Shown here: piece by piece, positions 3,656 through 22,062 of the stretch
Position numbering within the stretch: position 1 is the stretch's first letter
Layout of the letters: each line of letters begins with the position of its first letter
IMG/VR virus record: IMGVR_UViG_3300023174_000064
Span: 1-64,000 of that record
DNA from: a virus
Reading direction: 5' to 3' (one strand)
DNA: 64,000 nt
Notes under the pieces: generated by a model
What the model saw: the letters and a program-made list of their open reading frames with translations, nothing else
Told to the model about the DNA's origin: nothing
Database searches by the model: none
Program-made: the position numbers and the translations under genes

Positions 3656-3660
3656 CAGGA

Positions 3661-3691: not shown

Positions 3692-3704
3692 TACCGGGTA
3701 TACT
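3677..3704 (+). promoter_or_regulatory. Weak candidate promoter for the HNH gene
   Basis: TTGCTT (3677-3682), 16-bp spacer, TATACT (3699-3704). The ATG at 3713 is 8 nt downstream and has no Shine-Dalgarno sequence, so the message may be leaderless. Confidence 0.35.
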
Positions 3705-3712
3705 GTCCTATA

Positions 3713-6496: not shown

Positions 6497-8287
6497 ATGA
6501 GAATTAAACTATTAAACGAAGGTGTAGTAGACTCTGCAAGCCGAAGTGTAGAAGGCAAACCGTCTTACGGTTGGGGTGCTGCTGGTTTAGGTATGATACC
6601 AGATGCTATTGATCCGGTTCAAAGACTAATACAAGGCGGAAAAACATACGAAGATGGTATGTTTCGTTCTTATGATGCAATAGCCGGAAAACAATTTAAA
6701 GACGAACAAGGTAAAACGAGACAAGTTTCTCCCACTCAATCCGATCCTTATTTAAAACAAAAAGATCTGGCCACAGTTGCATTAACTGCAGGTGGTGCTG
6801 TTGAAGGTGTTGCCGATCTACTTGGAAAAAGCGAAAATTCAATAAGCAAATGGATTGCTCATCCTGCTTTAATAGGAGGTATTGGTGTTAAAGATGCATT
6901 TGAAACCGCTAATCAGTTAAGACAAGCAAAAGAATTATGGAATGCAGGAAAAACAACAGAAGCAAAACGTAAAGCGTTAGAAACAATAGAACCTGCCACT
7001 ATAAGTGCTGCTTCTTTGGCGGCACTTGGATCACATTATCTTCCTAGTATTATTCCAGCAACTCCTGCCACCACAGGTACATTTGCCAGAAGTTTGGGTG
7101 GTGCTGTTACAGGACTCACAAATAAATTGGATAAACTTGCCACAGAATACGAGAATGAAGGAATGGAAGGTGTTGAGAAGGCATTAGATACAATGGATTG
7201 GCATGATGCAACAGCCGCTGCATGGGGGGCTGCTGGTCCTGCCATGGATTGGGCTCTTCGAAAACAATTAACTGGAAAAATGGCATCCAAAGCACTACCT
7301 TTTGGAGTAGGAATGATTCCTTCTGCGTTATTTGCAGGAAAACAGTTAGGACATGGGATTATGGATGCATCAAGTGGTAACTTGGAACTTGCATTAAAAA
7401 GAGGAGCATTGGGTGTTGGTGAATTAGTATCAGGATTGGGTTATGCTACTGGAGGTGGAGCTGCTGCAGGAGCTGCTGCCGATGTAGGTATTGCTTTAAA
7501 ACAACAACAACTAGAAAAAGAAGAAGAAGAAATGGATGCTGAAGAATACAGAAAACAAGCGGAAAAAGATACAGAAGCAAGATTAAAACGAGCTGCTGAA
7601 CAACGTAAAGAAAGACTACAACCAGTTTTTGAACAATTCAGAGCAAGAGAACGAGAGAGAGAACGAGAAAAAGATAAAGGTGGAGAACGATTAAGTGATG
7701 CAGAACGTGCCGCTCGTGACGCTCCAGAAGTAAAACCAGAAAAACCAAAAGAACAAGAAACAGAAAAACCAAAAGAACAAGAAACAGAAAAACCAAAAGA
7801 AAAAGAAACAGAAAAAAAACCAGGATTTTGGAGTAGAATATTAAAAGGGCTTGGTATTGCAACTACTGGTGCTGTAGCCGGTGTTGTTGCTGGTGCTAAT
7901 GATGATGCTGATAAAACCGATAAAATTACACCATCAAAGTATTTTGATCCAACCAGAGAAGAAATTGCAGGTAATGAGACTTTAGTTGCTTCTGCAAAAA
8001 CACCACAATTTGATTGGTATAGAAATCAATGGTACACAATGCCAACCAGAATTATGAGTTCTACTATTATCAATGAAGGAAAACTAACTCCTAAAGAGTC
8101 TTTACAACGTAAGTTAAAGAAACAGCGGTATAAGGTTTCTTACGTTCAAGACGGTAAAAAAGTGGAAGTGTTTGCTTCTTCTATTCGTGGTGTTCGCCGA
8201 GTTGTGTATGGAAAGAAACAGTATAAAGTTCACAATTCAACTGGATCTGACGTGACCGGTTACTTTAAGAAACTGCTTGGTAGATAA
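6497..8287 (+). CDS. Large low-complexity protein with CTS-like N-terminus, candidate internal head protein
   Basis: A 596-residue protein. It begins MRIKLLNEG, where L6-N7-E8 before G9 fits the T4 prohead-protease rule (L/I)-x-E followed by Ala/Gly. Residues about 90-340 are Gly/Ala-rich with several hydrophobic segments. Residues 345-400 form a charged coiled-coil (KQQQLEKEEEEMDAEEYRK). Residues about 415-438 are a tandem 8-residue repeat (EKPKEQET). A hydrophobic segment (LGIATTGAVAGVVAGA) follows, and a basic C-terminal domain (about 533-596) contains another I-I-N-E-G. It shares the module GGE-x-LS-x-AERAARDAPEV with the protein at 18963. SD AAGGA precedes the ATG. Internal virion or ejected protein is an inference; the family is not recognised. 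Confidence 0.6.
   Translation: MRIKLLNEGVVDSASRSVEGKPSYGWGAAGLGMIPDAIDPVQRLIQGGKTYEDGMFRSYDAIAGKQFKDEQGKTRQVSPTQSDPYLKQKDLATVALTAGGAVEGVADLLGKSENSISKWIAHPALIGGIGVKDAFETANQLRQAKELWNAGKTTEAKRKALETIEPATISAASLAALGSHYLPSIIPATPATTGTFARSLGGAVTGLTNKLDKLATEYENEGMEGVEKALDTMDWHDATAAAWGAAGPAMDWALRKQLTGKMASKALPFGVGMIPSALFAGKQLGHGIMDASSGNLELALKRGALGVGELVSGLGYATGGGAAAGAAADVGIALKQQQLEKEEEEMDAEEYRKQAEKDTEARLKRAAEQRKERLQPVFEQFRAREREREREKDKGGERLSDAERAARDAPEVKPEKPKEQETEKPKEQETEKPKEKETEKKPGFWSRILKGLGIATTGAVAGVVAGANDDADKTDKITPSKYFDPTREEIAGNETLVASAKTPQFDWYRNQWYTMPTRIMSSTIINEGKLTPKESLQRKLKKQRYKVSYVQDGKKVEVFASSIRGVRRVVYGKKQYKVHNSTGSDVTGYFKKLLGR
7739..7810 (+). repeat. 24-bp in-frame tandem repeat (three copies)
   Basis: Three near-perfect copies of a 24-bp unit (7739-7762, 7763-7786, 7787-7810) encode EKPKEQET repeats; the third copy has Q changed to K. 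Confidence 0.8.
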
Positions 8288-8290
8288 AAT

Positions 8291-8539
8291 TTAAACTACG
8301 CCGTAGGCGGTAAGACCACTGACAGAAATTACTTGATTTGCAATAATTGGTAAAATAGTAGAAGTACCAGTTAAACCGGTATTAGTTAAAGTTACTCCAC
8401 TACCATCAGAAAATTTAAGACCAATTGAATTGGTAGATGAAATGTATGATAAAAAAAGTCCTCTATGAGGAGCCACTATACTAGTTCCGGCGGTTATTCC
8501 AAATACTTTTTGATAAGATGCAGGTGTAATTGCTTTCAT
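8291..8539 (-). CDS. Small beta-rich protein, probably structural
   Basis: An 82-residue protein, uncharged overall and rich in Thr, Ser, Gly and Ile, with alternating polar/hydrophobic strands (GLKFSDGSGVTLTNTG, ILPIIANQVISVSG). It resembles small decoration or tail proteins of marine and freshwater phages, but no named family can be assigned. It has no Shine-Dalgarno sequence. An exact minus-strand TATAAATA lies 5 nt before its ATG, predicting a late, leaderless message. It converges on the 596-aa gene with only 3 nt between the two stop codons. Confidence 0.6.
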   Translation of the reverse strand: MKAITPASYQKVFGITAGTSIVAPHRGLFLSYISSTNSIGLKFSDGSGVTLTNTGLTGTSTILPIIANQVISVSGLTAYGVV

Positions 8540-8544
8540 GTAAG

Positions 8545-8552
8545 TATTTATA
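8545..8552 (-). promoter_or_regulatory. T4-late-type promoter octamer, leaderless arrangement
   Basis: TATAAATA on the minus strand, then CTTAC (5 nt), then ATG at 8539. Same spacing as at 4228-4241. Confidence 0.6.
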
Positions 8553-8603
8553 ACAGTTATTTTTTTACCATCATATATAATATAGTGATTATTTTATACA
8601 ATT

Positions 8604-9260
8604 ATGAACAATAAAACTTTTACCCATAAATTAGTAAATTTGCAGCAAGGTGAACGAGTAGACGGGTTTTATCAAACTCCAGACGGCAGATTTCCCAGTG
8701 TAACAACTGTGGTAGGCTGGAAAAAGAATCAGTTTTTTGCCGAATGGCGCAAAAAGAATCCTAAAGAAGCTGCCCGTACCAGAACCCGTGGCACCAAGCT
8801 GCACTCTTTAATTGAAACTTATCTGTTAAATGAACCTAAATTTAAAGATCAAGACCCATACACTTTAGATCTTTTTAATCAAATTCAAACAGAAATTGAC
8901 AAAATTGACAACATTTACGCAATTGAAGGCTTTCTTTGGAGCAAGCCGTTACGCATGGCAGGCCGATCTGACTGTATTGCAGACTATAATGGGATTCCCA
9001 GTGTGATCGACTTTAAAGGAAGCACCAGACCCAAACAAAAAGACGACATTCACAGTTACTTTCTACAAGCCACTGCATACGCTGAAATGTGGAAAGAACG
9101 CACTGGGCAACCAATAACACAGATTGTTATCTTAATTTCATGTGATGATGGTACCACTCAGGTGTTTGTGGAGAACACCAAAAATTACAAAAAAGCACTT
9201 GCTGTAGCAATTAAAGAATGGAGAGACGAATATGAACCTAGACAATGTAAACAAGCGTAA
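8604..9260 (+). CDS. PD-(D/E)XK exonuclease, MGME1/RecB-like
   Basis: A 218-residue protein with the motif order of MGME1-type PD-(D/E)XK nucleases: PSVTTVVGW (31-39), the helix R62-G-T-K-L-H67, E108, G120-R-S-D123 (metal ligand), the core I-D136-F-K138-G, and Q155-A-T-A-Y-A. All catalytic positions (H67, D123, D136, K138, Q155) are present. Such proteins are single-strand DNA exonucleases common in T4-like marine phages, used in recombination, replication-end processing or host DNA breakdown. The start lacks a Shine-Dalgarno sequence; the upstream region is AT-rich with a TATAAT at 8576-8581. It overlaps the next gene by 29 nt, showing translational coupling. Confidence 0.8.
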   Translation: MNNKTFTHKLVNLQQGERVDGFYQTPDGRFPSVTTVVGWKKNQFFAEWRKKNPKEAARTRTRGTKLHSLIETYLLNEPKFKDQDPYTLDLFNQIQTEIDKIDNIYAIEGFLWSKPLRMAGRSDCIADYNGIPSVIDFKGSTRPKQKDDIHSYFLQATAYAEMWKERTGQPITQIVILISCDDGTTQVFVENTKNYKKALAVAIKEWRDEYEPRQCKQA

Positions 9261-9597
9261 TAGTAGAGAATGGTCACTTTTTAATGAAAATTCTCGCGGA
9301 GAAAACAATCGTGCCAGATTTGTTGAAAAATATGGTGGAGAATTTGTTAAAATTAACAAATCTTGGGTTTGGAACTCACGAGTAAAAAAGAAAATGGACT
9401 TTGCTCACACTAAAAAGAAACGAACCATTTATATTTTTACCGATAAAGATGGAATTAAGTATATTACAGACAATTTTACCAGTTTTTGTAAAGACAGAAA
9501 TATTAATGATGCTGCTATGTACGATGTTATTAATGGAAAACGAAAAAGCTTTAAAGGATTTACAGTTGAACGCATTCAACCAAAAGATCAAGCTTAA
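9232..9597 (+). CDS. Homing-endonuclease-type DNA-binding protein (NUMOD-like)
   Basis: A 121-residue basic protein whose start lies inside the exonuclease gene (29-nt overlap), with GGAG about 8 nt upstream of the ATG. The C-terminal 40 residues (FTSFCKDRNINDAAMYDVI, then NGKRKSFKGFTVERI) match the helix-turn-helix repeat found beside HNH and GIY-YIG nucleases in T4-like phages (NUMOD1-type: a short helix, S-x-x, NGK, GF/GW). The N-terminal half contains a segment resembling small phage DNA-binding modules (NRARFVEKYGGEFVKINKSWVW). No nuclease motif is visible, so it is either a free DNA-binding remnant of a homing endonuclease or a regulator. Confidence 0.55.
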   Translation: MNLDNVNKRNSREWSLFNENSRGENNRARFVEKYGGEFVKINKSWVWNSRVKKKMDFAHTKKKRTIYIFTDKDGIKYITDNFTSFCKDRNINDAAMYDVINGKRKSFKGFTVERIQPKDQA

Positions 9598-9620
9598 AAA
9601 TCCATAAATAACTGTACACT

Positions 9621-11987
9621 ATGCTTAATCAACCCAACTGGTTCAACGAATCTGAATACGCCGATTTTCTTGCCGAGTCTTCCATTCTTTGGGAGATGAA
9701 TGTTCCATATCAAAAACAAAAGTTTGAAAATCGAAAGAAAATGAGAAATTTTGAACGTGAGACTGCCATCCGTAAAGGCCGTTTAAAGTCTGAACTCACC
9801 AGAGAGTTGTATCAAGCAAAGGCTAAAGGTATTCGTATGGGATTAGGTGAACAATTTAAACAAACATTAATGGATAATTTTTTTAATAAATTAATGGAAG
9901 CTAAAACTGCAATCAAAGCAGAAAAGTCCAGAATGCGTCCAGAAGTGGATCCAGCAGATAAAGAAAGAGACAGAAAACGAGAAGACAGACGACAAGAAGC
10001 ACAAAAAAATCCACTGTCTAATGTGATAATTGTTAAAAATAAAAAATTAAATAAAGTAGAAATTATCACCAAAGAAGATTTTAATTCAAAAACTCACGAA
10101 TTACTTAAAGGAAAAGTAAAAAATATGGATAAAGGAAGTGTCTCTAAAGCAGATCTGAGACATTATTCTGAAATGGATAATTTTATGACTACCAAGACTT
10201 CTATTAAACTACTTGGTAAAAAAGAAAAACAACAAACCAAAAAGAAAACACCAAAACAATCTGGTGAAAATTCACAAGAAACAAAAAGTGAAACTCCCCC
10301 ACCACCAACACCACGAGTTCCTAAAGACGGCAAAGAAATAACTGATCCAGATTCCACATATCCGGATTGGGATCATACTATTGCACAATTTACAAATTAT
10401 ATTCCTGATGCATTAAATACCATTACAGGAAAACCAGTTTCTCCAGAATATCAACAAATAATATCTGTTAGTAGAACTTTAGGTGATTCTTTAAACAGAT
10501 TTACCAGAGAACTACTACAAACTTTTCCACAAGTCAGTGAGATGAAATTTGAAAAAACAGAACTAGTAATGCCTACTGGAAAAATGTGGTCTAAATCTGG
10601 TATTCCTGAGACTTCTCCTAATGCTAATATTATTGGAGTTGGGCCAGATCAAACTTTGGGATTTTCTATTAAAATAGGTGAACAATTATCTCCAACAAAT
10701 AGAGGAGAAGCTGGTCAGGTTCTGAACAGTATTCTTGCTTCTGATTCTGAAGGAAAATATGCTCAAATATTTTCTTTGATGTTTGCTGATTTTATTTTGG
10801 AATTACGAAAGAAATTTTCTTTTGTTAACATGTATGCTCCTTCTACTCAAGTAGAAACACAAGGATCCATAACGATTGCAAGACAAAGATGGGATCGAGA
10901 AAACACAGAAAACAATCAAAAAACCTTTACAAATTCTTGTGGAGATTTTATTGAGAAGTTTTTAAATGATAATATAGATTTAAAAACTGCATTTTTATAT
11001 GAATCTCTGTCAGGCAATTTAAAATTTGATAAAAATCCAGGTTCTGCTCAAGTATTACTGAGTTCCAAAAAAGACGGTTCTGATCTTGCTGCTATTCCTT
11101 TGAACCAGGAATTTGCTTACGATCTTGCAAAATCTGATAGAACAGATTTGAATTTAAACTTTATTCAAACACCAAATTCTAGCAACGGATTTTATCAAAA
11201 TATAATGCAAAAATTTCGTACAGTTAATGAATCATCCATAGATGTCGTTATGGAGATGGAAAGACTTAAAAATAGTATTCCCGATCTTTTAACATTCATG
11301 AATTTGTTTGAGCTTAAATTAAATTCTGTTTCATACCGAACTCCAATTGTTTACTCTGATTTTTATTCTCCCGAATCAGACGTAAGTAATATAGTAACAA
11401 TAAATCAGGGCACAAACAGAGAAAAACAAATCAATATTCCTGTTAGAGCAACTTTTACTTCTGATGGTGAAGAAGAAAATATTATAGAAAAGGGTATTGA
11501 TCAAGTTCTTAATGAATATTTACTTTTAAATGATTATCTGGTTGAAAGTGTAAACGCAGATGAAATATCTTTAGAAGAAGCATGTGATTTTATCTGTGAA
11601 GAATTTAGTTTGATGGAAAAAAGAAATTATCGCAAAGAATACGACAATTACCACGCAAAACCAGAACAAAGAAAAAATCGTAGCAAACGAGTTCTTGCCA
11701 ACAGAATAATGAAAAAAAAGGGTAAAATTCGTAAAGGCGATGGTAATGATACTCATCATAAAGATGGCAACCCTCAAAATAATAGTGTTGACAATTTAAA
11801 AGTAATATCTAAATCAAAAAATCGCAGCATGAACGAAGATCATGGTGCAGGATTTGAAGGTACTCCTGAATTGGTAAATAAATTGCTTCAAGACACTCCC
11901 GGCTCTAATGACCCATTTGTTGGCATGAAAAGTATTCCCTACTTGGAAAGTCGTTTAAACAAGAAACTTAAAGCCAAAAAGAAGTAA
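9621..11987 (+). CDS. Large protein with C-terminal HNH-type domain
   Basis: A 788-residue protein. The N-terminal 110 residues are helical and charged (MLNQPNWFNESEYADFLAES, then a basic coiled coil). Residues about 100-240 are Lys/Pro-rich and likely disordered. Residues 240-640 form a globular region of unknown fold. The C-terminal 150 residues hold a basic helix and an HNH-type motif: H712-H713-K-D-G-N717-P-Q-N-N-S-V-D-N725-L, then ISKSKNRS, as in a family of HNH proteins widespread in marine and alphaproteobacterial phages. N-terminal L-A-E and L-W-E sites fit the (L/I)-x-E rule. It could be a virion-packaged nuclease. There is no Shine-Dalgarno sequence; a CATAAATA lies 10 nt before the ATG. 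Confidence 0.65.
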   Translation: MLNQPNWFNESEYADFLAESSILWEMNVPYQKQKFENRKKMRNFERETAIRKGRLKSELTRELYQAKAKGIRMGLGEQFKQTLMDNFFNKLMEAKTAIKAEKSRMRPEVDPADKERDRKREDRRQEAQKNPLSNVIIVKNKKLNKVEIITKEDFNSKTHELLKGKVKNMDKGSVSKADLRHYSEMDNFMTTKTSIKLLGKKEKQQTKKKTPKQSGENSQETKSETPPPPTPRVPKDGKEITDPDSTYPDWDHTIAQFTNYIPDALNTITGKPVSPEYQQIISVSRTLGDSLNRFTRELLQTFPQVSEMKFEKTELVMPTGKMWSKSGIPETSPNANIIGVGPDQTLGFSIKIGEQLSPTNRGEAGQVLNSILASDSEGKYAQIFSLMFADFILELRKKFSFVNMYAPSTQVETQGSITIARQRWDRENTENNQKTFTNSCGDFIEKFLNDNIDLKTAFLYESLSGNLKFDKNPGSAQVLLSSKKDGSDLAAIPLNQEFAYDLAKSDRTDLNLNFIQTPNSSNGFYQNIMQKFRTVNESSIDVVMEMERLKNSIPDLLTFMNLFELKLNSVSYRTPIVYSDFYSPESDVSNIVTINQGTNREKQINIPVRATFTSDGEEENIIEKGIDQVLNEYLLLNDYLVESVNADEISLEEACDFICEEFSLMEKRNYRKEYDNYHAKPEQRKNRSKRVLANRIMKKKGKIRKGDGNDTHHKDGNPQNNSVDNLKVISKSKNRSMNEDHGAGFEGTPELVNKLLQDTPGSNDPFVGMKSIPYLESRLNKKLKAKKK

Positions 11988-11996
11988 AGGTGTTCA

Positions 11997-12629
11997 ATGA
12001 TTGACGGTCATTTTAGCTTTTCCCAAGATTTTGTTAAAGTATTTGAAGCTTATTCGGCATATGTTGCAGTGGCATGTGCAATGATGTTTGGTGTTTGGAA
12101 AGCATGGACCAAATACAGTAAAGACCGAGAAAATAATGATAACTCTTTCATCACGGTACACGGCGAAATACATGAAGTTCTAACAGAACTCAGAGTATTA
12201 ACAGACTCGGCCAGAGCTCAAGTAATCCAATTTCACAACGGCGAATACTTCATGGATGGTGTATCCATGAGAAAATTTAGTATTACACACGAGTCGTTAG
12301 AAAAAGGAATCGAATCAGACGCCAATCGAATCAAAGGTGTTCTTTGCTCTATGTTTATTCCTTTGCTTAATTTGGTATTAGAAGACAGCCCCCGAATCCA
12401 TTACACAGTAGATCTTAAAAACTCCTACTTGAAACAATACTTGGAATCTCGTAGCGTGGAAGCTTTCAGTGTACTTCCTATTAAGATTCAAAACCAAACA
12501 ACCGGATTTGTAATGGTTCAGTGGTGTAGTGGTCTGAAAGCTGAAAGAATTGATGAAACATTTACTGTAAATGAATTAACCAAGATTCGTAATCAAATTA
12601 CGGCTCAACTAGGACAGCAAAAGCGATGA
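11997..12629 (+). CDS. Membrane-anchored protein with a GAF-like domain
   Basis: A 210-residue protein with one N-terminal transmembrane helix (YVAVACAMMFGVWKAW, residues about 22-37) followed by a soluble domain. The segment A-Q-V-I-Q-F-H-N-G-E-Y-F (about 75-86) and the later VLPIKIQNQTTGFVMVQW (about 160-177) suggest a GAF/PAS-like sensor fold of the kind found in cyanobacterial and phage proteins. That assignment is by pattern only. It lies 9 nt after the HNH-domain gene and overlaps the next gene by 4 nt (ATGA), so it is cotranscribed. A membrane location is well supported; ligand and role are unknown. Confidence 0.55.
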   Translation: MIDGHFSFSQDFVKVFEAYSAYVAVACAMMFGVWKAWTKYSKDRENNDNSFITVHGEIHEVLTELRVLTDSARAQVIQFHNGEYFMDGVSMRKFSITHESLEKGIESDANRIKGVLCSMFIPLLNLVLEDSPRIHYTVDLKNSYLKQYLESRSVEAFSVLPIKIQNQTTGFVMVQWCSGLKAERIDETFTVNELTKIRNQITAQLGQQKR

Positions 12630-13828
12630 GATTAAACGAAGTATATAAAGATTCCGGATTAGGAAAATGGTTCCATAAACAGTCTGCAACCAAAGAACCT
12701 GGTTGGGATAGATACAATAGTACTGGAAAGCGTGTAGGCAAATGTGGTGATGCCAAAGAAGGCGAATCGTATTCTGCCTGCCTTTCAAAACAAAAGGCCC
12801 AAAAATTAGGTAAAGACGGAATTGGTAGTTTTGTGAAAAGAAAACGAGAAGCACAAAGCGATGCTGGTAGAGGTAAAAAAGGAACAGGTTCTAAAGGAAA
12901 AAAACCAATATTTGTTGAAACCGGTGCAGCAAAGAAAAAGGTAAACGAATCTATGCAAAATACAAATGAAGATTGTGGTTGCGAACACAACGATAAAAAA
13001 TTTAATCTAATGAATAAGATTAAACAAAACATGAAGAAAAAGCTTTTAAAAGAACAAGCTAGTTTTGAAATGTGGAAAAAAAACAATTCAAATATTCAAG
13101 TAACAAAAGAATGTATGGATTTTACTGAATTAGATCTTATGTCGTTTCGTGGTAAAAAAACTTTGGTAGAAACACATAACGGAAATCATTACGGTACTCT
13201 TGGTATTTTTAAAAAGAATTTTGCTTTGTTTGAAGACGGCGAAATCAGCAAAGTGATTGATCCAGCAGAAGTAACAAAGGTTGTATGTGAAGATACACGA
13301 GTTGTAATTTTGGAAAAGAATGTTCCAAACGATTCTAAAAAATGGTCGAATTGTAAGAGTCAAGCAAAAAGTAAATTTGATGTTTATCCAAGTGCGTATG
13401 CAAACGCATGGGCATCAAAATGTTACAAGAAAAAAGGCGGAACTTGGAAGAAAGTAAACGAAGAATTGGACAATAAAATGAAGAACTTAAAAGAAGAAAT
13501 ATCAAAAGAAACGGCAAAATCTGATATAGATTTAATCTTAAGAGAACGATTAAAACATCGTTTTTTTGGTCAAATTTCTGAAGATATTGTAAATAAAGAC
13601 AATAAAGGCAAATTGACTCCACAAAAAACAAATCCTAGAGCCAAAAGTCGAGATAAAATTCGTGAAAAGGTGAAAGATCGAGCCAAAGTGGTAACTGGCC
13701 CTAAAGACAAAAATGGCAATAAAATAAGAGACGACACCCCAGAAGAAGCCGGTTATCGTTTAGCAACCTTTATTGAATTAAAGAAAAAAGGCAAATTGAA
13801 GTCTGATAAAAAGAAAAACAAGAAATAA
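12626..13828 (+). CDS. Conserved phage protein with Cys-containing DUF5872-like segment
   Basis: A 400-residue, very basic protein. The N-terminal 95 residues carry the pattern GLGKWFH, KEPGWDRYNSTGK, KCGDAKEGESYSACLSKQKA, VKRKREAQSD, typical of a small conserved module in T4-like cyanophages (DUF5872-type). A second module around residues 235-275 (KWSNCKSQAKSKFDVYPSAY, then WASKCYKKKGGTW) is also widely conserved in such phages. The C-terminus is a Lys-rich tail with TPEEAGYRLATFIELKKKGK. The N-terminus MRLNEV contains an L-N-E site like the other candidate head-internal proteins here. Role unknown; abundant basic residues suit DNA binding in the head. ATGA overlap with the previous gene. 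Confidence 0.65.
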   Translation: MRLNEVYKDSGLGKWFHKQSATKEPGWDRYNSTGKRVGKCGDAKEGESYSACLSKQKAQKLGKDGIGSFVKRKREAQSDAGRGKKGTGSKGKKPIFVETGAAKKKVNESMQNTNEDCGCEHNDKKFNLMNKIKQNMKKKLLKEQASFEMWKKNNSNIQVTKECMDFTELDLMSFRGKKTLVETHNGNHYGTLGIFKKNFALFEDGEISKVIDPAEVTKVVCEDTRVVILEKNVPNDSKKWSNCKSQAKSKFDVYPSAYANAWASKCYKKKGGTWKKVNEELDNKMKNLKEEISKETAKSDIDLILRERLKHRFFGQISEDIVNKDNKGKLTPQKTNPRAKSRDKIREKVKDRAKVVTGPKDKNGNKIRDDTPEEAGYRLATFIELKKKGKLKSDKKKNKK

Positions 13829-13833
13829 AAACT

Positions 13834-13841
13834 AATAAATA
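13834..13841 (+). promoter_or_regulatory. Late-promoter-like octamer AATAAATA
   Basis: One mismatch to TATAAATA. It is followed by a Shine-Dalgarno sequence (AGGTGGAG) and the ATG at 13856. Confidence 0.35.
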
Positions 13842-13855
13842 AGGTGGAGACTTAA

Positions 13856-14383
13856 ATGAAAAAGTTTAAACAACTAAAACAACAATTAACAGAAGACGCT
13901 TATATGGATGGTGGAGCTCTAGGTGGCTTTCCTGCTCAAAAATCAACCAGAAGTGCGTTCAGCGATTTTGGTGTTCATCGTATAGAACACGACGATCAAT
14001 TAAAAAGACTACAAGCATTTGTAAACGCTTTTACTAGCCGTGAGTATCTTGAACCACGTGCTGCTTTATCTTTATTACGAGTAAAGTTAAATCTTGCTGG
14101 TTTTGATTTTGATTTCAACAAAAATACAGTAGTTCAAACCAACACACCAACCATCTTTAAATTAAAAAGATTTGGTGGAACTTTTGGTAAAACTTTAACT
14201 ACTCCACACAATGAATTTCAGACTACTGATGGATTTGAAGACATCTTAGACGGAAAGCATCTTGCATTACATACAGTTTTACATGAAGCACCATCCGGTT
14301 TATATAAATTAGAAATCCAAATTATCAAATATTCAAACACACCAGAAGAAGAAATAGAAGATAATTCCTTTAAATTAGATTGA
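13856..14383 (+). CDS. Hypothetical phage protein, 175 aa
   Basis: Good SD (GGTGGAG) before the ATG. The protein begins MKKFKQLKQQLTED, where L11-T12-E13 again matches the (L/I)-x-E propeptide pattern, followed by a glycine-rich stretch (DGGALGGFPAQ). Residues 40-170 look globular and mixed alpha/beta (YLEPRAALSLLRVKLNLAGF, GTFGKTLTTPHNEF, GLYKLEIQIIKYS). The last 15 residues are acidic. It is separated by a single base from the next gene, with which it forms a compact operon. No family is recognised with confidence. Confidence 0.6.
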   Translation: MKKFKQLKQQLTEDAYMDGGALGGFPAQKSTRSAFSDFGVHRIEHDDQLKRLQAFVNAFTSREYLEPRAALSLLRVKLNLAGFDFDFNKNTVVQTNTPTIFKLKRFGGTFGKTLTTPHNEFQTTDGFEDILDGKHLALHTVLHEAPSGLYKLEIQIIKYSNTPEEEIEDNSFKLD

Positions 14384-14384
14384 A

Positions 14385-14765
14385 ATGTTGCGTAATCCTT
14401 TGAGTGAAGATAATTTTTTACTTTATGCTATTAAAATGTACGACAATCCCAATTCAAATGGGATTGGAGAATTTTATGAAGATTTAAATCGCATAAAATA
14501 CATTAAAAGATTATTCAACAAATACAGCTGTAAAAAGCCTTTAAAGGATCGATTGGTGTTAAATCATATTTTAATTTTAAACAATGTTTTTGGAGCAGAA
14601 GCTTGTTCTAGAATATTGTTTTATAAAATAGAACCAAAATATTATTCCTATTTAAAAACATTCTTATCATTTCTTCAAATTTTACCTAAATCAATACCAG
14701 AAACTAAAATAGACGAGATTCCATTAGATCACAGAATAATGCAAGCTCTGAAAGAAATCAAATGA
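14385..14765 (+). CDS. Conserved T4-like phage protein (DUF7207-like)
   Basis: A 126-residue, mostly helical protein beginning MLRNPLSEDNFLLYAIKMYD. The pattern NPLxEDNF, then EFYEDLNRIKYIKRLF, then RLVLNHILILNNVFG, then ILFYKIE, LKTFLSFLQILP is that of a small protein conserved across T4-type cyanophages and their relatives (DUF7207-type in my memory). Its function is unknown. Its place among conserved phage genes, one base after the previous gene and with an ATGA overlap to the next, supports a single transcript. Predicted soluble. Confidence 0.7.
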   Translation: MLRNPLSEDNFLLYAIKMYDNPNSNGIGEFYEDLNRIKYIKRLFNKYSCKKPLKDRLVLNHILILNNVFGAEACSRILFYKIEPKYYSYLKTFLSFLQILPKSIPETKIDEIPLDHRIMQALKEIK

Positions 14766-15136
14766 CAAGCTTAAGTAACATAATAACATGTTTTACCGCC
14801 TCTAAATTTATTGAGGAAGTTACTAAACCAAACTATCGCAATTCTTTAATTGAAACCACTTTATTTGAATTTTCACAAGAGTGTGAACAATTAGGCGGAA
14901 ATAGTGACCTGTTTATACAGATTGCTACCAGAGAATTGGATGCGTGTAGACTATTAGAACAAGAAGGTGGAGCAGCTCCAATCACCAATTCTGTTGGTGG
15001 TGGCGGTATTGCTGGCATGAAACCAGACGATCTGGCAGTTCCAGTGGAAGCTCAAAAACGCCATACATCCAGAAACTCTATATTTAAGCGTAAGAAGCCT
15101 AATACATACTTTAAGGATAAAGATAACAGTTATTGA
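14762..15136 (+). CDS. Hypothetical phage protein, 124 aa
   Basis: The start overlaps the previous stop (ATGA), so translation is coupled. Residues 1-75 appear helical (IEEVTKPNYRNSLIETTLFE). A glycine-rich linker (SVGGGGIAGM, about 79-88) joins a short basic tail ending in HTSRNSIFKRKKPNTYF. This layout, a helical domain followed by a flexible basic tail, is seen in small virion or DNA-binding proteins, but no family can be named. It lies directly before the candidate holin gene. Confidence 0.55.
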   Translation: MTSLSNIITCFTASKFIEEVTKPNYRNSLIETTLFEFSQECEQLGGNSDLFIQIATRELDACRLLEQEGGAAPITNSVGGGGIAGMKPDDLAVPVEAQKRHTSRNSIFKRKKPNTYFKDKDNSY

Positions 15137-15148
15137 GAAAGGATTGTT

Positions 15149-15586: not shown

Positions 15587-15596
15587 GGAGTATCCA

Positions 15597-15863: not shown

Positions 15864-15885
15864 ATAAAGAAAAAGGAATACCACC

Positions 15886-16611
15886 ATGGACCCAAGAATG
15901 ATGAACGCATGGCTGCAAAGCCAAACCCAAAAACAACAACAATCTACCCGCTCTTTTGAACTACAAAGACAAGGTATGGCTATTACTGAGCAACTTAATG
16001 CTCAGGAAGAAAAGTATGCTAAATCCCATAAGAGCATGCTTAAAAGCATGATTAAGCAATACGGTGAACAAAAAGGTACCAGAGTATTTTACGCCAAGGT
16101 TCGTGAAGACGTAAAGAAGCTGAATGAAGGTAGGGTTATGCAGATACAGGATCGTTCAACTGGTCAATCAGCTCCTCTTCCATCTACAGATGAAATGATT
16201 AAACAAGGTGAAAAAACGGACGCTGAACTTCAAAATTTAATTAATAAGATGGATGAATATGGAATAGGAAGTAAACCAACTAAAACTAATAATCCTCCTC
16301 CAGCCCAACCATTACCTACCTCTCAAGATGGTTCTAATGTTGTACCAACTTCTCAAAAAGAAAGAAATACACCAGGTGGAGTAGGAGTCCCAAGCGATAT
16401 TCCAATGCCATATACTTCTGGTAATAAAAGACCACAACCTGCTCCACAACCTGCTCCACAACCTGCTCCACAACCTGCTCCACAACCTGCTCCACAACCT
16501 GCTCCAAGACCTCAAAGACCACAACCTCTTCCACAACCTGTTGCAACACCAAACTCCAAGCCAGGACTAAAGAACGATATTGATCGGATGACCGGTCGTG
16601 GTTTATATTAA
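15886..16611 (+). CDS. Proline-rich repeat protein with N-terminal coiled coil
   Basis: A 241-residue protein with SD AAGGA. Residues 1-80 are helical and charged (MAITEQLNAQEEKYAKSHKS), probably a coiled coil. A central part has no clear pattern (STDEMIKQGEKTDAELQNLI). Residues about 185-215 are a tandem Q-P-A-P repeat encoded by a 12-bp repeat. The last 20 residues (PGLKNDIDRMTGRGLY) look like a conserved tail peptide. Such rod-like proline repeats act as spacers in virion or surface proteins. Function unknown. It ends in a strong bidirectional terminator shared with the resolvase gene opposite. Confidence 0.6.
   Translation: MDPRMMNAWLQSQTQKQQQSTRSFELQRQGMAITEQLNAQEEKYAKSHKSMLKSMIKQYGEQKGTRVFYAKVREDVKKLNEGRVMQIQDRSTGQSAPLPSTDEMIKQGEKTDAELQNLINKMDEYGIGSKPTKTNNPPPAQPLPTSQDGSNVVPTSQKERNTPGGVGVPSDIPMPYTSGNKRPQPAPQPAPQPAPQPAPQPAPQPAPRPQRPQPLPQPVATPNSKPGLKNDIDRMTGRGLY
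16438..16506 (+). repeat. 12-bp tandem repeat (five perfect copies plus part)
   Basis: The unit CCTGCTCCACAA runs from 16438 to 16497 without mismatch, then a partial copy. It encodes Pro-Ala-Pro-Gln and is a likely site of length variation by slippage. Confidence 0.85.
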
Positions 16612-16630
16612 TTTATAATAATAAAATATA

Positions 16631-16663
16631 AAAACCTCCGACCTAAAAATCGGAGGTTTTTAT
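16631..16663. terminator. Bidirectional terminator between convergent genes
   Basis: An 11-bp stem (16631-16641 with 16650-16660: AAAACCTCCGA/TCGGAGGTTTT) with an 8-nt loop. T-runs occur on both strands. It separates the proline-repeat gene (+) from the resolvase gene (-), whose stop codon lies at its edge. Confidence 0.85.
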
Positions 16664-17217
16664 TTTAGCCCTTTTAATTTTAAGTAAAGAGCCTTACAGA
16701 TAAAGTATGAGTCCACAATATCAGATACTGGATTTCCAATATCCTTTTTGCCAGGACTAATAACATTTTGTAAATTCACAAACGTTTCTTTGAGAAATGC
16801 ATTGTACATCTCTTCTTTGTTGGCATTACCTTTACCAGACGCTTGTTTCTTGATGGCACTGGGTGGAATTACTTCTACCGGTATGCCGGTTTGATGTAAA
16901 CGGTATTTTAGTACACCAGTATTTTCTGCAATATGGAACACTTTACCTTTGGCACCAAACGCGTATCCTTCAATTGCTACCTGTTCACAGCCTGTCAGGT
17001 AATCCATAGCCCAATCTGAAATGTTTTCGTATCTGGAGAAATCGCTATTCCAGTCATGGAACGCTTCTCCTTTGATATTGTTCATGAATAATCGTTGATT
17101 TTTCTTTACATCAGAAAGAAAGTAAAACGCACATCGTTTAAAGCAGAACGCTTCTTCCGAATTAAAAACACAGATGCTGGGACTTGTTAGGGAATAATCT
17201 ATACCTGCAATTAACAT
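16660..17217 (-). CDS. RuvC-like Holliday junction resolvase
   Basis: A 185-residue protein with the RNase H-like layout of RuvC: G5-I-D7-Y-S-L-T-S-P-S at the first strand, V80-A-I-E83-G-Y in the middle, and a C-terminal S-D166-I-V-D169-S-Y motif. The four acidic catalytic positions (D7, E83, D166, D169) are all present. It would cut branched DNA during packaging or recombination, a role played by gene 49 in T4 with a different fold. It is read from the minus strand with no Shine-Dalgarno sequence; a CCTAAATA octamer lies 6 nt before the ATG, which may mark a late, leaderless message. Length is in the usual range for RuvC (about 170 residues). Confidence 0.8.
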   Translation of the reverse strand: MLIAGIDYSLTSPSICVFNSEEAFCFKRCAFYFLSDVKKNQRLFMNNIKGEAFHDWNSDFSRYENISDWAMDYLTGCEQVAIEGYAFGAKGKVFHIAENTGVLKYRLHQTGIPVEVIPPSAIKKQASGKGNANKEEMYNAFLKETFVNLQNVISPGKKDIGNPVSDIVDSYFICKALYLKLKGLK

Positions 17218-17232
17218 GTACTATATTTAGGG

Positions 17233-17328
17233 TTAGAAACCCATAGCCCGAGCGATCAGCATTCCTAGTAGAACACTGATTGCACAAACCATAACTCGAT
17301 GAAAGTTATTCAGTTGAACATTGTTCAC
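17233..17328 (-). CDS. Possible 31-aa single-helix membrane protein
   Basis: In the gap between the protease and resolvase genes, a GTG-started frame reads NNVQLNNFHRVMVCAISVLL and continues GMLIARAMGF. It holds one transmembrane helix and a basic N-terminal part. GGAG lies about 10 nt before the GTG, within the end of the protease gene, so coupling is possible. Small membrane proteins of this size are common in phages, but this could also be chance. Function unknown. Confidence 0.35.
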   Translation of the reverse strand: MNNVQLNNFHRVMVCAISVLLGMLIARAMGF

Positions 17329-18076
17329 GATTCATCATCTCCTTAATCCAATCCGCATAACGATCCACGCGGATCGCTGATTGGTCAACCATAGTGTTGT
17401 CGATGATGCACATAGATGAAATAATACCTGCCAGACGACCACCATTTTCAAAAACAGCTCCACCTGAATCTCCAAACCAGATGTGTCCGTTTATTGGAAG
17501 AAACTTCATGTACTGAGGTTCTTCTTCCACAGTTCCGTAATACCAGAAGGTTCCTGGTTTGCTTACCTTTTTAATCTCATGAGAGAATCCCACAGTGGTA
17601 AGTGCTTCTCGTTGTGTTAGCTCAGACTTATCGTGTATTAACTGTGCTGGCTGCTCATCACATCCTTCCGTTAAAATTAATATTCCAATATCGTCTACCA
17701 CTTCTCCGTCTTTTCCGGTATATCCGGGGTGAATAATAGTCTTTTCTATCAGATAAGCTTTATCCTTGGTTATAAAATACTGCAAGGTATCGCCGTCAAT
17801 TACATGCCCTGCAGTGAGAACCACTGCAGGGGCAATCAGAACGCCACTTCCTATGAACTGGCCTTTCTGGTTGTGTACGTGCCCCACGCAACCAAACGTA
17901 TCTTTGGTATTGTGATTTACGACCTCGAATCCGGGGAATGGATCTGGCTTACTAATACCCTGTGGTATTTGAATGATTGCGGTGGGGGAGGGTGATTTGG
18001 AGACACTGGCATCTTTCTGGCATCCCATTTGGGCGGCTAGAATCACTGCTGAAAGGATTGCAGTGAGCTTCATCAT
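17306..18076 (-). CDS. Secreted trypsin-like (S1) serine protease, lipoprotein
   Basis: A 256-residue protein with an N-terminal signal ending in A-Q-M-G-C19, consistent with a lipobox and lipid attachment. The mature part is a chymotrypsin-fold protease with the full triad: T88-A-G-H91-V, D-D129-I-G-I-L, and the serine motif G202-D-S204-G-G-A-V. Such a protease would act in the periplasm or at the host envelope. Phages rarely carry exported trypsin-like enzymes; possible roles are clearing envelope proteins, processing its own surface proteins or superinfection defence (inference). Its ATG lies after an AT-rich stretch without a Shine-Dalgarno sequence. It runs opposite to both neighbouring blocks, apart from the resolvase. 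Confidence 0.8.
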   Translation of the reverse strand: MMKLTAILSAVILAAQMGCQKDASVSKSPSPTAIIQIPQGISKPDPFPGFEVVNHNTKDTFGCVGHVHNQKGQFIGSGVLIAPAVVLTAGHVIDGDTLQYFITKDKAYLIEKTIIHPGYTGKDGEVVDDIGILILTEGCDEQPAQLIHDKSELTQREALTTVGFSHEIKKVSKPGTFWYYGTVEEEPQYMKFLPINGHIWFGDSGGAVFENGGRLAGIISSMCIIDNTMVDQSAIRVDRYADWIKEMMNREQCSTE

Positions 18077-18132
18077 TACATAAATATGTATATCAGATAA
18101 CGGAAAAAAACCAAAGATTTTAAGGACTAACC

Positions 18133-18930
18133 ATGAACACCAATAACGAAATGAATATTATTCGCGGTATACTAAACGAACAAGTCGATATAGTTACTCC
18201 TGAATCTGCTTCTATATTCACACCATCATCGTCTGTGCCCGGTTCTGTTAATCCTCAAACTAAACGACCACTATCGCACGAAGAACTAATGGATTTGGTT
18301 AAAAAGTCTTTAGAACAAACACAAGACGCTTTACAATCAGCTGGCAGAAGAGATGCTGCTGTTACACAATATCGAAACAGTGCTCCGGCTGCTCCTAATG
18401 AAGCAGCAATTCGCCAAGACGCTCGTGCAAGCTTTACAACCGATGGACACTGGGATGCAGAAAAGTATAAAGCTTGGAGAGCAGGCAGGGCTGCAGAAGG
18501 TGCAGAATGGGCACAACGCGGTGAAGCTAGAGATAAAGTTAATGCTGTTAGAAAAGAAAATGAAAGATATCTTGGCGATCTTAAAGCCAATCTACAACAG
18601 TCTAGAACAGCCAAGACTCCTGAAGAAAGAACTGGAGCCTTCAATATGGCCATGACTAATGTTGATACCTTTATTTCTAATGCTGAAAGCCGACAACAAA
18701 AAATAGATGCAGACAGAACTGCAAGAACGACTGCTCAAACATCCAATACTGAAACAAAAACAATTCCTGGTATGGACGCTCCTCCACCAACAGAATACTA
18801 TAAGAAACACCCAGAATTATGGGAAAAACGAAAACAAGCAGTAGTTGATTTTAATGCATCTAAAACTGCGGAAGAACGCCAACGACACTTGGATATTGTT
18901 AAACAATTAGATGCTCCATCAGGCTACTAA
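18133..18930 (+). CDS. Charged helical protein with CTS-like N-terminus
   Basis: A 265-residue protein with SD AAGGA. The start MNTNNEMNIIRGILNEQ is homologous to that of the next protein (NNE-x-N-x-I-R-D/G-I) and ends in L14-N15-E16 before Q17, the (L/I)-x-E pattern of T4 prohead-protease sites. The rest is rich in Ala, Glu, Lys and Arg and is mostly helical and coiled-coil-like, with no membrane segment. It resembles internal head proteins in composition. No family is recognised. It is the first of three co-oriented low-complexity genes. Confidence 0.6.
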   Translation: MNTNNEMNIIRGILNEQVDIVTPESASIFTPSSSVPGSVNPQTKRPLSHEELMDLVKKSLEQTQDALQSAGRRDAAVTQYRNSAPAAPNEAAIRQDARASFTTDGHWDAEKYKAWRAGRAAEGAEWAQRGEARDKVNAVRKENERYLGDLKANLQQSRTAKTPEERTGAFNMAMTNVDTFISNAESRQQKIDADRTARTTAQTSNTETKTIPGMDAPPPTEYYKKHPELWEKRKQAVVDFNASKTAEERQRHLDIVKQLDAPSGY

Positions 18931-18934
18931 ATAA

Positions 18935-18942
18935 TATAAATA
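18935..18942 (+). promoter_or_regulatory. T4-late-type promoter octamer TATAAATA
   Basis: Exact octamer between the 265-aa and 475-aa genes. A Shine-Dalgarno sequence (AAAGGA) follows before the ATG at 18963, so this transcript would have a normal short leader. Confidence 0.5.
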
Positions 18943-18962
18943 ATATATTACAAAGGATTAAA

Positions 18963-20390
18963 ATGCATAATCTTCCAACCAACAACGAAACTAATCTTAT
19001 TCGTGATATTTTTTCTCAAAGTTCTAAACTAATTAATGAACAAGCTCGGCCTGGACGCAGAGGTAAAGGAAAAGAACGAGAAAAAGATGAAGGTAAAGGT
19101 GGAGAACCATTAAGTGCTGCAGAACGTGCCGCTCGTGACGCTCCAGAAGTAATGCCAACAGACGCTACTGGTCAAGGTGTTCTGTTCCCGGAATTAGTCG
19201 GAGAACTTCCTGCATCAAAAAATCCTATGGATATGGCTGCAGATAGTGTGGTGGATCCTCATTACCCAGAAACCGTACAATCAGAATTTTGGTCATTAGA
19301 AACACCACCAAGCGAACCTACACCATTAACAGGAAAAGGTTCTAAAGGTATCCGAATGCGGGATCTCACTGGCAAAGAAATAAGAGCAGTATATGGAGAA
19401 CCATTTGTTACTATAGGTGATGCGTCACTTCCTATGGGTATGTACCAATGGAGAACAAATAATCCTTATACACCACCTGCACCCAGAAAAGCGAAAGATG
19501 GAATTGTACCACCAACTCCTACACCAACTCCGACTCCCACACCAACTCCTACACCAACTCCGACTCCCACACCAACTCCTACACCTCCTCCTATTGATTC
19601 GGGAGATAAAGGCGACAAAGGCGATGCAGGCATTCCTGGCCTTAAAGGTGATAAAGGCGATAAAGGCGATGCAGGCATTCCAGGCGAAAAGGGTGATCGT
19701 GGTATTCCCGGAGAAAAAGGCGATAAAGGTGATGCAGGCAAAAGATCGTGGTTCGGAGCTCTTGGATTGCTTGGTGGTATTGGTATAATTCCATACATCT
19801 TACCTTATGGTGAAAAATCATCAGACAATACTAAATCACCACCACAAACACCACCAACTCCACCAACTCCAACCCCAGGTCCAGTTTCACCAACCCCAAC
19901 CCCAGGTCCAACACCACCAAAAAAATTAGGTCCTCCAGCTCCTCCAAAACGACCTGATTGGATGCCTAATGTACCGTACGTTCCAACATCTCCTAAACCA
20001 GAACAAACTAAACAACCAGGTAGTCTTCCACTAGTAACTTCAGGTAGAGGAGAACGTGCAGATCAACCACAAAAATCTGGAATGCCTAGAGATATAGAAA
20101 CCAGACCAGCCATGGACGAGGCAGAGTTAGTTCGAGTAGTTCCTGGTTCGCAGTCTTGGAATCAAATGAGTGCAGACCAACAAGAAAAAGTGAGACAACA
20201 CTACCGTTCCGGTAAATCAAATTTGAGTATTCGTTTTAAGAACGGTCAATTTGATGAACCAGGTTATGGTGATCAAGGTCAACACGGAGATATAGTTAAA
20301 GCATTAAATCGTGGATCACGATCACCAACAGAACGTCAGATTCAAGAATCTCTAATGAGTATTGCAAATAAAATTATGAACCAAGGTTAA
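18963..20390 (+). CDS. Collagen-like and Pro/Thr-repeat protein with CTS-like N-terminus
   Basis: A 475-residue protein. The N-terminus resembles that of the previous gene and ends in L23-I24-N25-E26 before Q27. Residues about 49-65 hold the module GGEPLSAAERAARDAPEV shared with the protein at 6497. Residues about 183-208 are a Pro-Thr repeat. Residues about 212-260 are a collagen-like Gly-x-y run (GDKGDKGDAGIPG). A hydrophobic segment follows (LGLLGGIGIIPYILP), then another Pro/Thr-rich stretch and a C-terminal helical domain ending in IQESLMSIANKIMNQG. Collagen-like triple helices occur in phage fibres, but the N-terminus points to the head. Not matched to a named family. Confidence 0.6.
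   Translation: MHNLPTNNETNLIRDIFSQSSKLINEQARPGRRGKGKEREKDEGKGGEPLSAAERAARDAPEVMPTDATGQGVLFPELVGELPASKNPMDMAADSVVDPHYPETVQSEFWSLETPPSEPTPLTGKGSKGIRMRDLTGKEIRAVYGEPFVTIGDASLPMGMYQWRTNNPYTPPAPRKAKDGIVPPTPTPTPTPTPTPTPTPTPTPTPTPPPIDSGDKGDKGDAGIPGLKGDKGDKGDAGIPGEKGDRGIPGEKGDKGDAGKRSWFGALGLLGGIGIIPYILPYGEKSSDNTKSPPQTPPTPPTPTPGPVSPTPTPGPTPPKKLGPPAPPKRPDWMPNVPYVPTSPKPEQTKQPGSLPLVTSGRGERADQPQKSGMPRDIETRPAMDEAELVRVVPGSQSWNQMSADQQEKVRQHYRSGKSNLSIRFKNGQFDEPGYGDQGQHGDIVKALNRGSRSPTERQIQESLMSIANKIMNQG
19511..19587 (+). repeat. 30-bp tandem repeat encoding Pro-Thr
   Basis: Two perfect copies of a 30-bp unit (19511-19540 and 19541-19570) and a 17-bp partial copy. They encode (PT)n and form a slippage-prone stretch. 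Confidence 0.85.
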
Positions 20391-20403
20391 TAGGAAATTA
20401 CAA

Positions 20404-22062
20404 ATGGATAAGAAACAAATATTAGAAGCTTTAAAAGACACTATAAACAAAATAACAAATCCTTATGAAACATCCAAAGAAAATTCTGAGGATGATGGTG
20501 GTACCACAATACAAGTAGATAATGAGGATGATATTGTTGATTTGGGTAGTCAAGAAGTAGAATTTCCAAAGCATTTAATACAAGCTCCATATCCACCGGA
20601 AGGAACACATGCTGAATGGAATGAGTTTATTCCTGGTTATTTGCCGTTAATCAAGAAAAAGGATGAAGAAGAAACTAAAGCTCCTTCTTCTATTGCCGAC
20701 GTGTATGCAAGAGATCCCAGATTTGCTCCTCAAGAACCAAATGCTGGTCTTAAATTAGGTCGTACTATTACTATTCCGCCTCCTCCTCTTCCAGAACAAC
20801 CAAAGAATACATCAGTAAAAGCCAAGAAAATGGCGGATGATATCATATCTGGTATTAAAGCTACTGATGCAGAAATGGGCGGTAATAGAATAGCTAATAA
20901 TATCATATCTGGTATTAAAGCTACTGATGCAGAAATGGGCGGTAATAGAATAGCTAATAATATCATATCTGGTATTAAAACTTCTTCTTCTACTGTTGAT
21001 GTGGATGCAAGAGATCCCAGATTTGCTCCTCAAGAACCAAATGCTGGTCTTAAATTGGGTCGTAATATTACTATTCCGCCTCCTCCTCTTCCAAAACAAC
21101 CCATGGATCGTGCTGTTAAGCAATTTAGAAACCGCGAAGAAGAACAGAATGTTGTAAAGGATTTTAATCAACAAACAAAAAGCACATTATCTGCGGAAGA
21201 TCAAAAAAGAAAAGCAGAATTTGATCAATATCAAAAAGATTACGAGCAATATCAAAAAGATTACGATCAATGGGCAAAGGATAATCCAGAAGCATTAAAG
21301 CAAAGATTGCGTCAACAAAGAAGAGAATTCCACGGAAAAGACCCAGCATATGTAACCACTACTGGAGATGAAATTTACAATCCAGAAATAGCTGCTAAAG
21401 TGAAAGCACAAGAACAACAAATTGCACAAATGAATGCAAATACTGCAGCAATGAATGCAGAATCAGAAAAAATTCAAAAAGAAATTGACAGACTTGCTAG
21501 CGGTCAACCAAGCGAGGCTTACGAAAGAAAAAGACTTGGCATTCCTGATGATGGTTCCAGAAGACCAGATACTAGACAAACATCACAAAAATTACCAATG
21601 GGAGGTGGACGTATGGCAGAAGAAAATTCATCGTATTATTACCGTCGTTTAGCAAATCTGTTTGAAGAAACTAGAGAACCATCAGGTCCTCAAGTTAATC
21701 AAGCAGCATACGGATTTAATGCTAGAGGTGGCAGAAATGCACGAAAAGCTTTAGCAAGTCTTCAAAGTGGTATGTGGAGAGGTGATTCCACTGCTAAAGG
21801 ATCTACTCGTAATCCTAATAAAGAAAGAAACGTAGGTAAAAGAGAATTGTCTGGAGAAGACATTAAACAAGCAGTTGCAACACTATATACTGCTGCAATG
21901 GAACATCCAGAATTTAAAAGAATGTTTGAAACTGGAGAATTTGGAAAGGCTCATATAATGAGTCCAAGTTCGGCTGCTCATAGAGCATTATTGGCAAAAT
22001 ATCCTCAAGGACATGAGGTGCATCAAGCGTCTGCAAAGATTTCTGAATACGGAAATAAATAA
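20404..22062 (+). CDS. Repeat-rich helical protein with internal duplications
   Basis: A 552-residue protein. The N-terminus MDKKQILEALKD contains I6-L7-E8 before A9, a good (L/I)-x-E followed by Ala site. Residues about 100-235 contain two copies of an ARDPRFAPQEPNAGLKLG block flanking a tandem 20-residue repeat (MADDIISGIKATDAEMGG). Residues 240-360 are a coiled coil rich in Gln and Tyr (YQKDYEQYQKDYDQWAKD). The C-terminal 90 residues form a more conserved-looking helical domain (LSGEDIKQAVATLYTAAM, then HPEFKRMFETGEFGKAHI). No family recognised. It ends the plus-strand block with a bidirectional terminator. Confidence 0.6.
   Translation: MDKKQILEALKDTINKITNPYETSKENSEDDGGTTIQVDNEDDIVDLGSQEVEFPKHLIQAPYPPEGTHAEWNEFIPGYLPLIKKKDEEETKAPSSIADVYARDPRFAPQEPNAGLKLGRTITIPPPPLPEQPKNTSVKAKKMADDIISGIKATDAEMGGNRIANNIISGIKATDAEMGGNRIANNIISGIKTSSSTVDVDARDPRFAPQEPNAGLKLGRNITIPPPPLPKQPMDRAVKQFRNREEEQNVVKDFNQQTKSTLSAEDQKRKAEFDQYQKDYEQYQKDYDQWAKDNPEALKQRLRQQRREFHGKDPAYVTTTGDEIYNPEIAAKVKAQEQQIAQMNANTAAMNAESEKIQKEIDRLASGQPSEAYERKRLGIPDDGSRRPDTRQTSQKLPMGGGRMAEENSSYYYRRLANLFEETREPSGPQVNQAAYGFNARGGRNARKALASLQSGMWRGDSTAKGSTRNPNKERNVGKRELSGEDIKQAVATLYTAAMEHPEFKRMFETGEFGKAHIMSPSSAAHRALLAKYPQGHEVHQASAKISEYGNK
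20701..21100 (+). repeat. Nested repeats: 60-bp tandem unit inside a 100-bp direct duplication
   Basis: A perfect 60-bp unit occurs at 20841-20900 and 20901-20960, with a further 19 bp. Outside it, the 100-bp segment at 20701-20800 recurs at 21001-21100 with only a few mismatches, exactly 300 bp apart. The frame is preserved. Confidence 0.9.

Follow-up and report, generated by a model that had tools for sequence, protein, structure and literature searches.

The window analysed here is a stretch of 64,000 nucleotides, positions 1 to 64,000 of the 146,037-base virus record IMGVR_UViG_3300023174_000064 (the whole record is referred to as G000, and L-numbered names denote related contigs). Between positions 6497 and 22062 its plus strand carries a group of genes, several of them for low-complexity proteins, whose N-termini contain the tripeptide (L/I)-x-E, the cleavage rule of the phage T4 prohead protease (PMC9026906). 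We consider these N-termini as candidate capsid-targeting leaders. The record belongs to a T4-superfamily phage: its major capsid protein shares 57% identity with the counterpart in cyanophage S-8S55, and the record and its relatives have the same order of head genes (portal, two core-like genes, gp21, a variable gene, gp22, gp23). The predicted sites in the window are listed below, with each gene named by its first position, an arrow marking the predicted cut, and ORF standing for open reading frame.

6497 to 6520, plus strand: predicted leader MRIKLLNE↓G of ORF 6497-8287 (596 aa)
6497 to 8287, plus strand: leader-bearing low-complexity protein with 1 internal (L/I)xE against 5.8 expected
8069 to 8077, plus strand: internal site INE↓G ahead of the conserved C-terminal domain GKLTPKESLQ (VSE↓G in L007)
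9621 to 9677, plus strand: additional candidate, N-terminus ending FLAE↓SS, in ORF 9621-11987 with a C-terminal HNH domain
12626 to 12640, plus strand: predicted 5-residue leader MRLNE↓V of ORF 12626-13828
13307 to 13315, plus strand: domain-junction site ILE↓KN inside 12626, before a second conserved block
13856 to 13894, plus strand: predicted leader MKKFKQLKQQLTE↓D of ORF 13856-14383
14762 to 14818, plus strand: additional candidate, N-terminus ending FIEE↓V, in ORF 14762-15136
18133 to 18180, plus strand: predicted leader MNTNNEMNIIRGILNE↓Q of ORF 18133-18930
18963 to 19040, plus strand: predicted leader MHNLPTNNETNLIRDIFSQSSKLINE↓Q of ORF 18963-20390 (collagen-like, Pro-rich)
20404 to 20427, plus strand: predicted leader MDKKQILE↓A of ORF 20404-22062

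An earlier note had listed six of these N-termini (6497, 12626, 13856, 18133, 18963 and 20404), all of which are present as written and in frame; it had missed the sites of 9621 and 14762, which are kept in relatives. Its statement that the termini of 18133 and 18963 are homologous and their bodies different also holds, as the two leaders are related through an NNE-x-N-I/L-IR core.

Comparison with related contigs gives strong support to the leaders of 18133 and 18963, good support to those of 13856 and 6497, and moderate support to those of 20404 and 12626. In L102 the leader of 18133 ends in ILNE↓Q, and in L103 it ends in ILHE↓A. In the case of 18963, the leader core MHNLPTNNETNLIR is kept across relatives, the linkers vary in length and sequence, and the bodies differ; nevertheless, all five linker versions end in (L/I)xE (LINE↓Q here, QLAE↓A in L007, L095 and L101, ILSE↓A in L098, FLNE↓Q in L102, and QLNE↓S in L103). 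The leader of 13856 is identical or nearly so in L007 and L101, and takes the form MKSYKQLKKQLIQE↓S in L098 and MKSFKDFQNVNE↓K in HTVC008M; the latter two read IQE and VNE, so that both spacing and P3 residue are variable. A structure model of 13856, of low confidence (predicted local distance difference test score 64), has a separate N-terminal helix, an unstructured stretch and a domain from residue 41, and fold comparison of this model gave no informative match.

The leader of 6497 resembles those of proteins encoded in the variable slot between gp21 and gp22 of relatives (MKIKLKE↓G in L016, MKIKLVNLIE↓G in L008 and L009), and modules of the 20404 body match slot proteins of L013 (E=8e-19) and L017 (E=1e-12). 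Through these two likenesses, the set of window proteins is connected with the head operon. Same-locus homologues of 6497 read KSILTE↓A or KSLLTE↓A near the N-terminus (L007; L144/L145), and its last 107 aa are conserved in the same three contigs; the INE↓G ahead of this C-terminal domain may be a second processing site. No direct relative of the 20404 leader was found among the related contigs, and the C-terminal part of this protein stands behind an NNExN leader in L098 and L102. Relatives of 12626 in L098, L007, L101 and L129 have MRLNE, MKLNE or MKRISE preceding VYKxSGLGKWFH. Of the two additional candidates, the first retains LAE↓SS in L007, L098 and L101 and has FLTE↓S in L144/L145, and the second reads FINE↓A in L101 and FLNE↓V in L098. 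In addition, a 21-residue module KGGExLSxAERAARDAPEVxP is common to the proteins encoded at 6497-8287 and 18963-20390 (86% identical), which are otherwise different.

A single occurrence of the motif is uninformative, because (L/I)xE turns up in 19% of the 25-residue stretches taken from inside the proteins of this proteome. Taken together, 9 of the 15 plus-strand genes between 6497 and 22062 have it within 28 residues of the start, where the bodies of these proteins would predict 3.7 (P about 0.001). The 91 control genes for tail, replication and other functions show no excess (18 with an N-terminal motif, 23.5 expected). The window leaders are thus real as a set, with some members present by chance. 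Two further matches were rejected as chance sites: LSE↓D of 14385, which reads LSD in L098 and LTK in HTVC008M, and LNE↓G of 112934, outside the window, which by eye is the apparent start of a UV endonuclease.

The enzyme that would process such leaders is encoded in the same record. A gene for a gp21-type prohead protease of family S77 is located outside the window at G000 79335-79982 (minus strand; PF03420, E=2.6e-41), and its product aligns to the solved T4 enzyme (PDB 5jbl, E=1.8e-25). The stretches GELNHP and GVSTRG match the H85 and S140 regions of T4 gp21, with the catalytic His and Ser kept. T4 gp21 itself carries H85 and S140; both positions are alanine in the 5jbl sequence, which is taken to be an inactivated mutant. 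Most relatives have GVSSRG in place of GVSTRG, and the first serine, at the T4 S140 position, is retained here. T4 propeptides are 7 to 65 residues long, and those of the internal proteins (IPs) 10-19; in the IPIII leader residues 4 and 7 matter for targeting, and residues 8 and 10 for processing (PMC9026906).

The leaders closest to the T4 form are found outside the window. Genome-wide, 14 of 137 genes have the pattern (L/I)8-x-E10, compared with 1.4 expected (P=1.8e-10); 13 of these are clustered at G000 118733-131980, and the other is the slot gene 78079. The cluster leaders, mostly similar to MKSFLQHLQE, begin with MKSF, MKTF or MLSF in ten genes and with MDPIT or MNPF in three. The bodies behind them are unrelated, including matches to VanY peptidase, GP88, nucleotidyltransferase, methyltransferase and DUF6321, a weak match to ADP-ribosyltransferase (ART), and unknown proteins. 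A degenerate DNA pattern encoding MK[ST][FY]xxx(L/I)xE has eight matches in G000, none in a reversed control and none in 200 shuffles of L005; applied to T4, it returns ipII, ipIII and gp61.1, and it has no match in T7 or SPO1. The T4 gene 61.1 (NC_000866 18966-19130) encodes a protein of 54 aa of unknown function that starts with MKTFKEFIKE; judged by this leader, gp61.1 is a possible overlooked internal protein of T4.

In ten L121 relatives or same-order neighbours, the glutamate at position 10 never varies and position 8 holds L, I or V, at whole-protein identities of 18-96%. Across 29 viral contigs, the MKSFLQ leader precedes kinase-like, HAD, Acb1, DUF6267 and DUF6321 bodies. Most partial relatives have few matches to the strict pattern, because their contigs end near the cluster or stop short of it. 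The L119 gene at 3061-3516, directly after the gp21-gp22-gp23 operon of a T4-like contig, encodes an Acb1 anti-CBASS nuclease (Pfam E=9.5e-23) behind the T4-type leader MKSFLQYLLE↓A. In annotated phages, nucleotidyltransferase relatives mostly have a short N-terminus with (L/I)xE near the body (MKKLISE, MKRLLSE, MRKFSQLLE), and in DSL-LC02, DSL-LC03, Lak-A1 and Maribacter Molly such a site is unclear or missing. The ART-PolyVal match of 118733, located after the leader MKSFIQFLSE↓S, is weak (E=0.002, below the curated cut-off), and a sequence search of phage records and PDB gave no relative of this protein.

The slot between gp21 and gp22 provides a set of genes picked by position alone. The body of the encoded protein changes completely between relatives, and 15 of 16 distinct leaders have (L/I)xE within the first 20 residues, compared with 0.85 expected. 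The residue after the glutamate is mostly A, G, S or Q, and the leader MKSFKEFLNE↓D in L020 is of the T4 type.

These results bear on several claims of the earlier note. It had stated beforehand that the lack of a gp21-type protease would speak against its proposal, and the S77 gene is present; it had suggested a search for further genes with the same kind of leader, and the cluster provides 13 of them with the site at exactly residue 10. Its notion of one shared leader in the window has to be replaced by several classes, most of them unlike the IPIII type. The T4-type leader idea was mostly correct as to kind, but it covered only part of the places involved and overstated how uniform the leaders are.

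The distribution of sites inside the proteins is informative for the fate of the cargo. In comparison with counts expected from shuffling, the scaffold protein gp22 (77008) is rich in internal (L/I)xE sites (15 vs 5.4), whereas the disordered low-complexity proteins of the window have 8 vs 14.8 (P=0.028) and the slot proteins 15 vs 25.8 (P=0.005). Disordered proteins that survive the protease are expected to be without such sites, and the window and slot proteins tend to follow this expectation. The first alternative makes the low-complexity proteins of the window accessory components of the prohead core or scaffold, which would use the leader for core entry and then be shredded or retained for head building, never being ejected. 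The modules shared between 20404 and slot proteins of the head operon and the match of the 6497 leader to slot leaders agree with this possibility, as does 12626, which is gp22-like in having 8 internal sites vs 2.7 expected. The multiple internal gp21 sites of a gp22-like scaffold are not found in the disordered window proteins other than 12626, and depletion rather than enrichment in both window and slot proteins, together with bodies that are hypervariable, unlike a conserved scaffold, makes this explanation unlikely.

A second alternative assigns the collagen-like, coiled-coil and Pro-rich proteins to the tail or baseplate, with the motif, frequent by chance, arising as a coincidence. The collagen repeat of 18963 (Pfam E=1.2e-8), through which its tail-fibre PHROG matches run, fits such an assignment. 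However, the site persists while linkers and bodies change, no N-terminal excess is seen in this genome's genes for tail and replication, and the clearly collagen-like tail-region gene 34316-38602 lacks such a leader; we regard a tail role as very unlikely. Coincidence in unrelated N-termini accounts for some matches, such as 14385 with its site lost in relatives and 112934, but is highly improbable for the whole in view of the window set, the genome-wide peak at residue 10, the 15 of 16 slot leaders, the recovery of ipII and ipIII from T4, and the conservation of the site in 18133, 18963 and 13856 across relatives with changing bodies.

We therefore favour, with a probability of about 0.78, the explanation that these N-termini are T4-type capsid-targeting propeptides removed by prohead cleavage, on a cargo larger and more varied than that of T4. 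This assignment builds on the observed leaders, the protease gene, conservation of the sites despite changes of bodies and linkers, and the scarcity of internal sites in disordered cargo proteins. In the proposed mechanism, the leader would dock each protein to the prohead core, gp21 would cut after (L/I)-x-E so that the leader is lost, and the mature protein would remain in the head with the DNA and probably be ejected into the host, as the T4 internal proteins and Alt are. Leaders and bodies would recombine, with the result that the cargo set turns over quickly. Packaging, cleavage and ejection are inferred, as is a role in host takeover or counter-defence. Ejection and counter-defence are the favoured role of the cargo because of the T4 precedent and the leader-bearing Acb1 of L119: IPI-III inhibit type IV restriction enzymes (PMC12373910), and Alt modifies RNA polymerase (PMC9026906).

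Several observations weigh against this explanation. The window enrichment by itself is modest (P about 0.001), and its counts are not independent of phylogeny. The window leaders are heterogeneous: the IPIII-type sequence (MK-S/T-F/Y..., with residues 8 and 10) is approximated in 13856, the only one that resembles it, and is not seen in 6497, 12626, 18133, 18963 and 20404. The leaders of 6497 (8 residues), 13856 (13), 18133 (16) and 20404 (8) are inside the T4 IP/Alt range, and those of 12626 (5 residues) and 18963 (26) fall outside the range quoted, the former being shorter than every leader length quoted for T4 (7-65; PMC9026906). Exceptions to the motif include IMNE↓T, with M instead of L/I, in a more distant 18133-type leader of L147; VKE↓A, a VxE, in the sixteenth slot leader (L011); and one DUF6321 fusion (L178) without a site. 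Collagen-like repeats are mostly found in tail proteins. Finally, the folded cargo of the E10 cluster has no depletion of internal sites (18 vs 17.5 expected), a result that would fit sites shielded by folding, yet is no evidence for such shielding.

Among the closest known systems is that of T4 IPI-IPIII, which share with the proteins described here a short N-terminal capsid-targeting sequence ending in (L/I)-x-E on unrelated bodies and an S77 protease, gp21 (PMC9026906, PMC12373910); the cluster leader MK-S/T-F/Y...L/I8-x-E10 is found by the same pattern that finds ipII and ipIII. The differences from T4 are: i) about 20 candidates in this genome in place of three IPs and Alt, ii) several leader classes, with a hypervariable gp21-gp22 slot and window leaders mostly without the IPIII-type sequence, and iii) cargo that includes VanY peptidase, methyltransferase, nucleotidyltransferase, GP88 and DUF6321 matches. 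The injected ADP-ribosyltransferase Alt of T4, with its 7-residue propeptide, has a possible parallel in 118733, a tentative ART behind its leader. The T4 core proteins gp22 and gp67 are similar in belonging to the head operon and having gp21 sites, with 78079 located between gp21 and gp22 here; the contrast between site-rich gp22 and the depleted slot and disordered window proteins sets the latter apart. The ejection proteins of SPN3US and phiKZ also form a large head-internal set, some of it processed by a prohead protease (PMC5694885); there, several head proteins have N-terminal propeptides longer than 100 residues, whereas the leaders here have 5-26.

Some of the proteins may be cut at domain junctions as well. 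With its excess of internal sites and ILE↓KN ahead of a second conserved block, 12626 looks like a processed polyprotein; this junction is an embedded leader, MKSFKQFISE↓KN, in L129 and reads IEE↓KN in cyanophage S-BM3. The DUF6321 domain is free-standing behind MKSFLQHLQE in this genome (129762) and internal behind KKSFKDFTE↓G in S-BM3. Among DUF6321 fusions on viral contigs, [LIVMF]xE ends 3-5 residues ahead of the domain W in 25 of 26 cases, strictly with L/I in 18, and several free-standing copies start with MATAAW or MARTAAW. The simplest reading of these junctions is that the same mature N-terminus may arise by initiation or by cleavage, which is suggestive and unproven because such motifs arise by chance more often in acidic linkers. 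A more general possibility, put forward tentatively, is that in this T4-like clade the prohead protease serves to mature a modular cargo of about 20 proteins in general. Several leader classes would enter by way of the core, a dedicated hypervariable slot would lie between gp21 and gp22, and part of the cargo would be polyproteins (12626, DUF6321 fusions) with domains set free at (L/I)-x-E junctions, in some cases following an embedded targeting leader.

Other features of the record were also observed. Searches of the window proteins against Pfam, PHROGs and NCBIfam brought up the HNH domain of 9621, the collagen repeat and a small number of PHROGs with no known function; all other matches were marginal or driven by repeats. 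By eye, a trypsin-like serine protease with a lipoprotein-type signal is encoded at 17306-18076, amid the leader-bearing genes, and is kept in relatives; on the minus strand at 48762-63845 a block of genes resembles glycosyltransferase, sugar-epimerase, UDP-galactopyranose-mutase-like and methyltransferase-like genes. The G+C content is ~56% at positions 1-4000 and 27-45% over the remaining window. The other end of the record (G000 132000-146037) has numerous short ORFs and looks like a genuine phage part rather than an assembly artefact, because similar ORFs are found in L121 downstream of its leader cluster.

If the capsid-targeting explanation is true, the leader would be a label for injected phage proteins that can be read directly from sequence. 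Many "hypothetical" genes of T4-like phages would then become predicted head cargo, counter-defence enzymes such as the Acb1 of L119 included, and the first-injected proteins of these phages would become directly testable by combining leader searches with virion proteomics.

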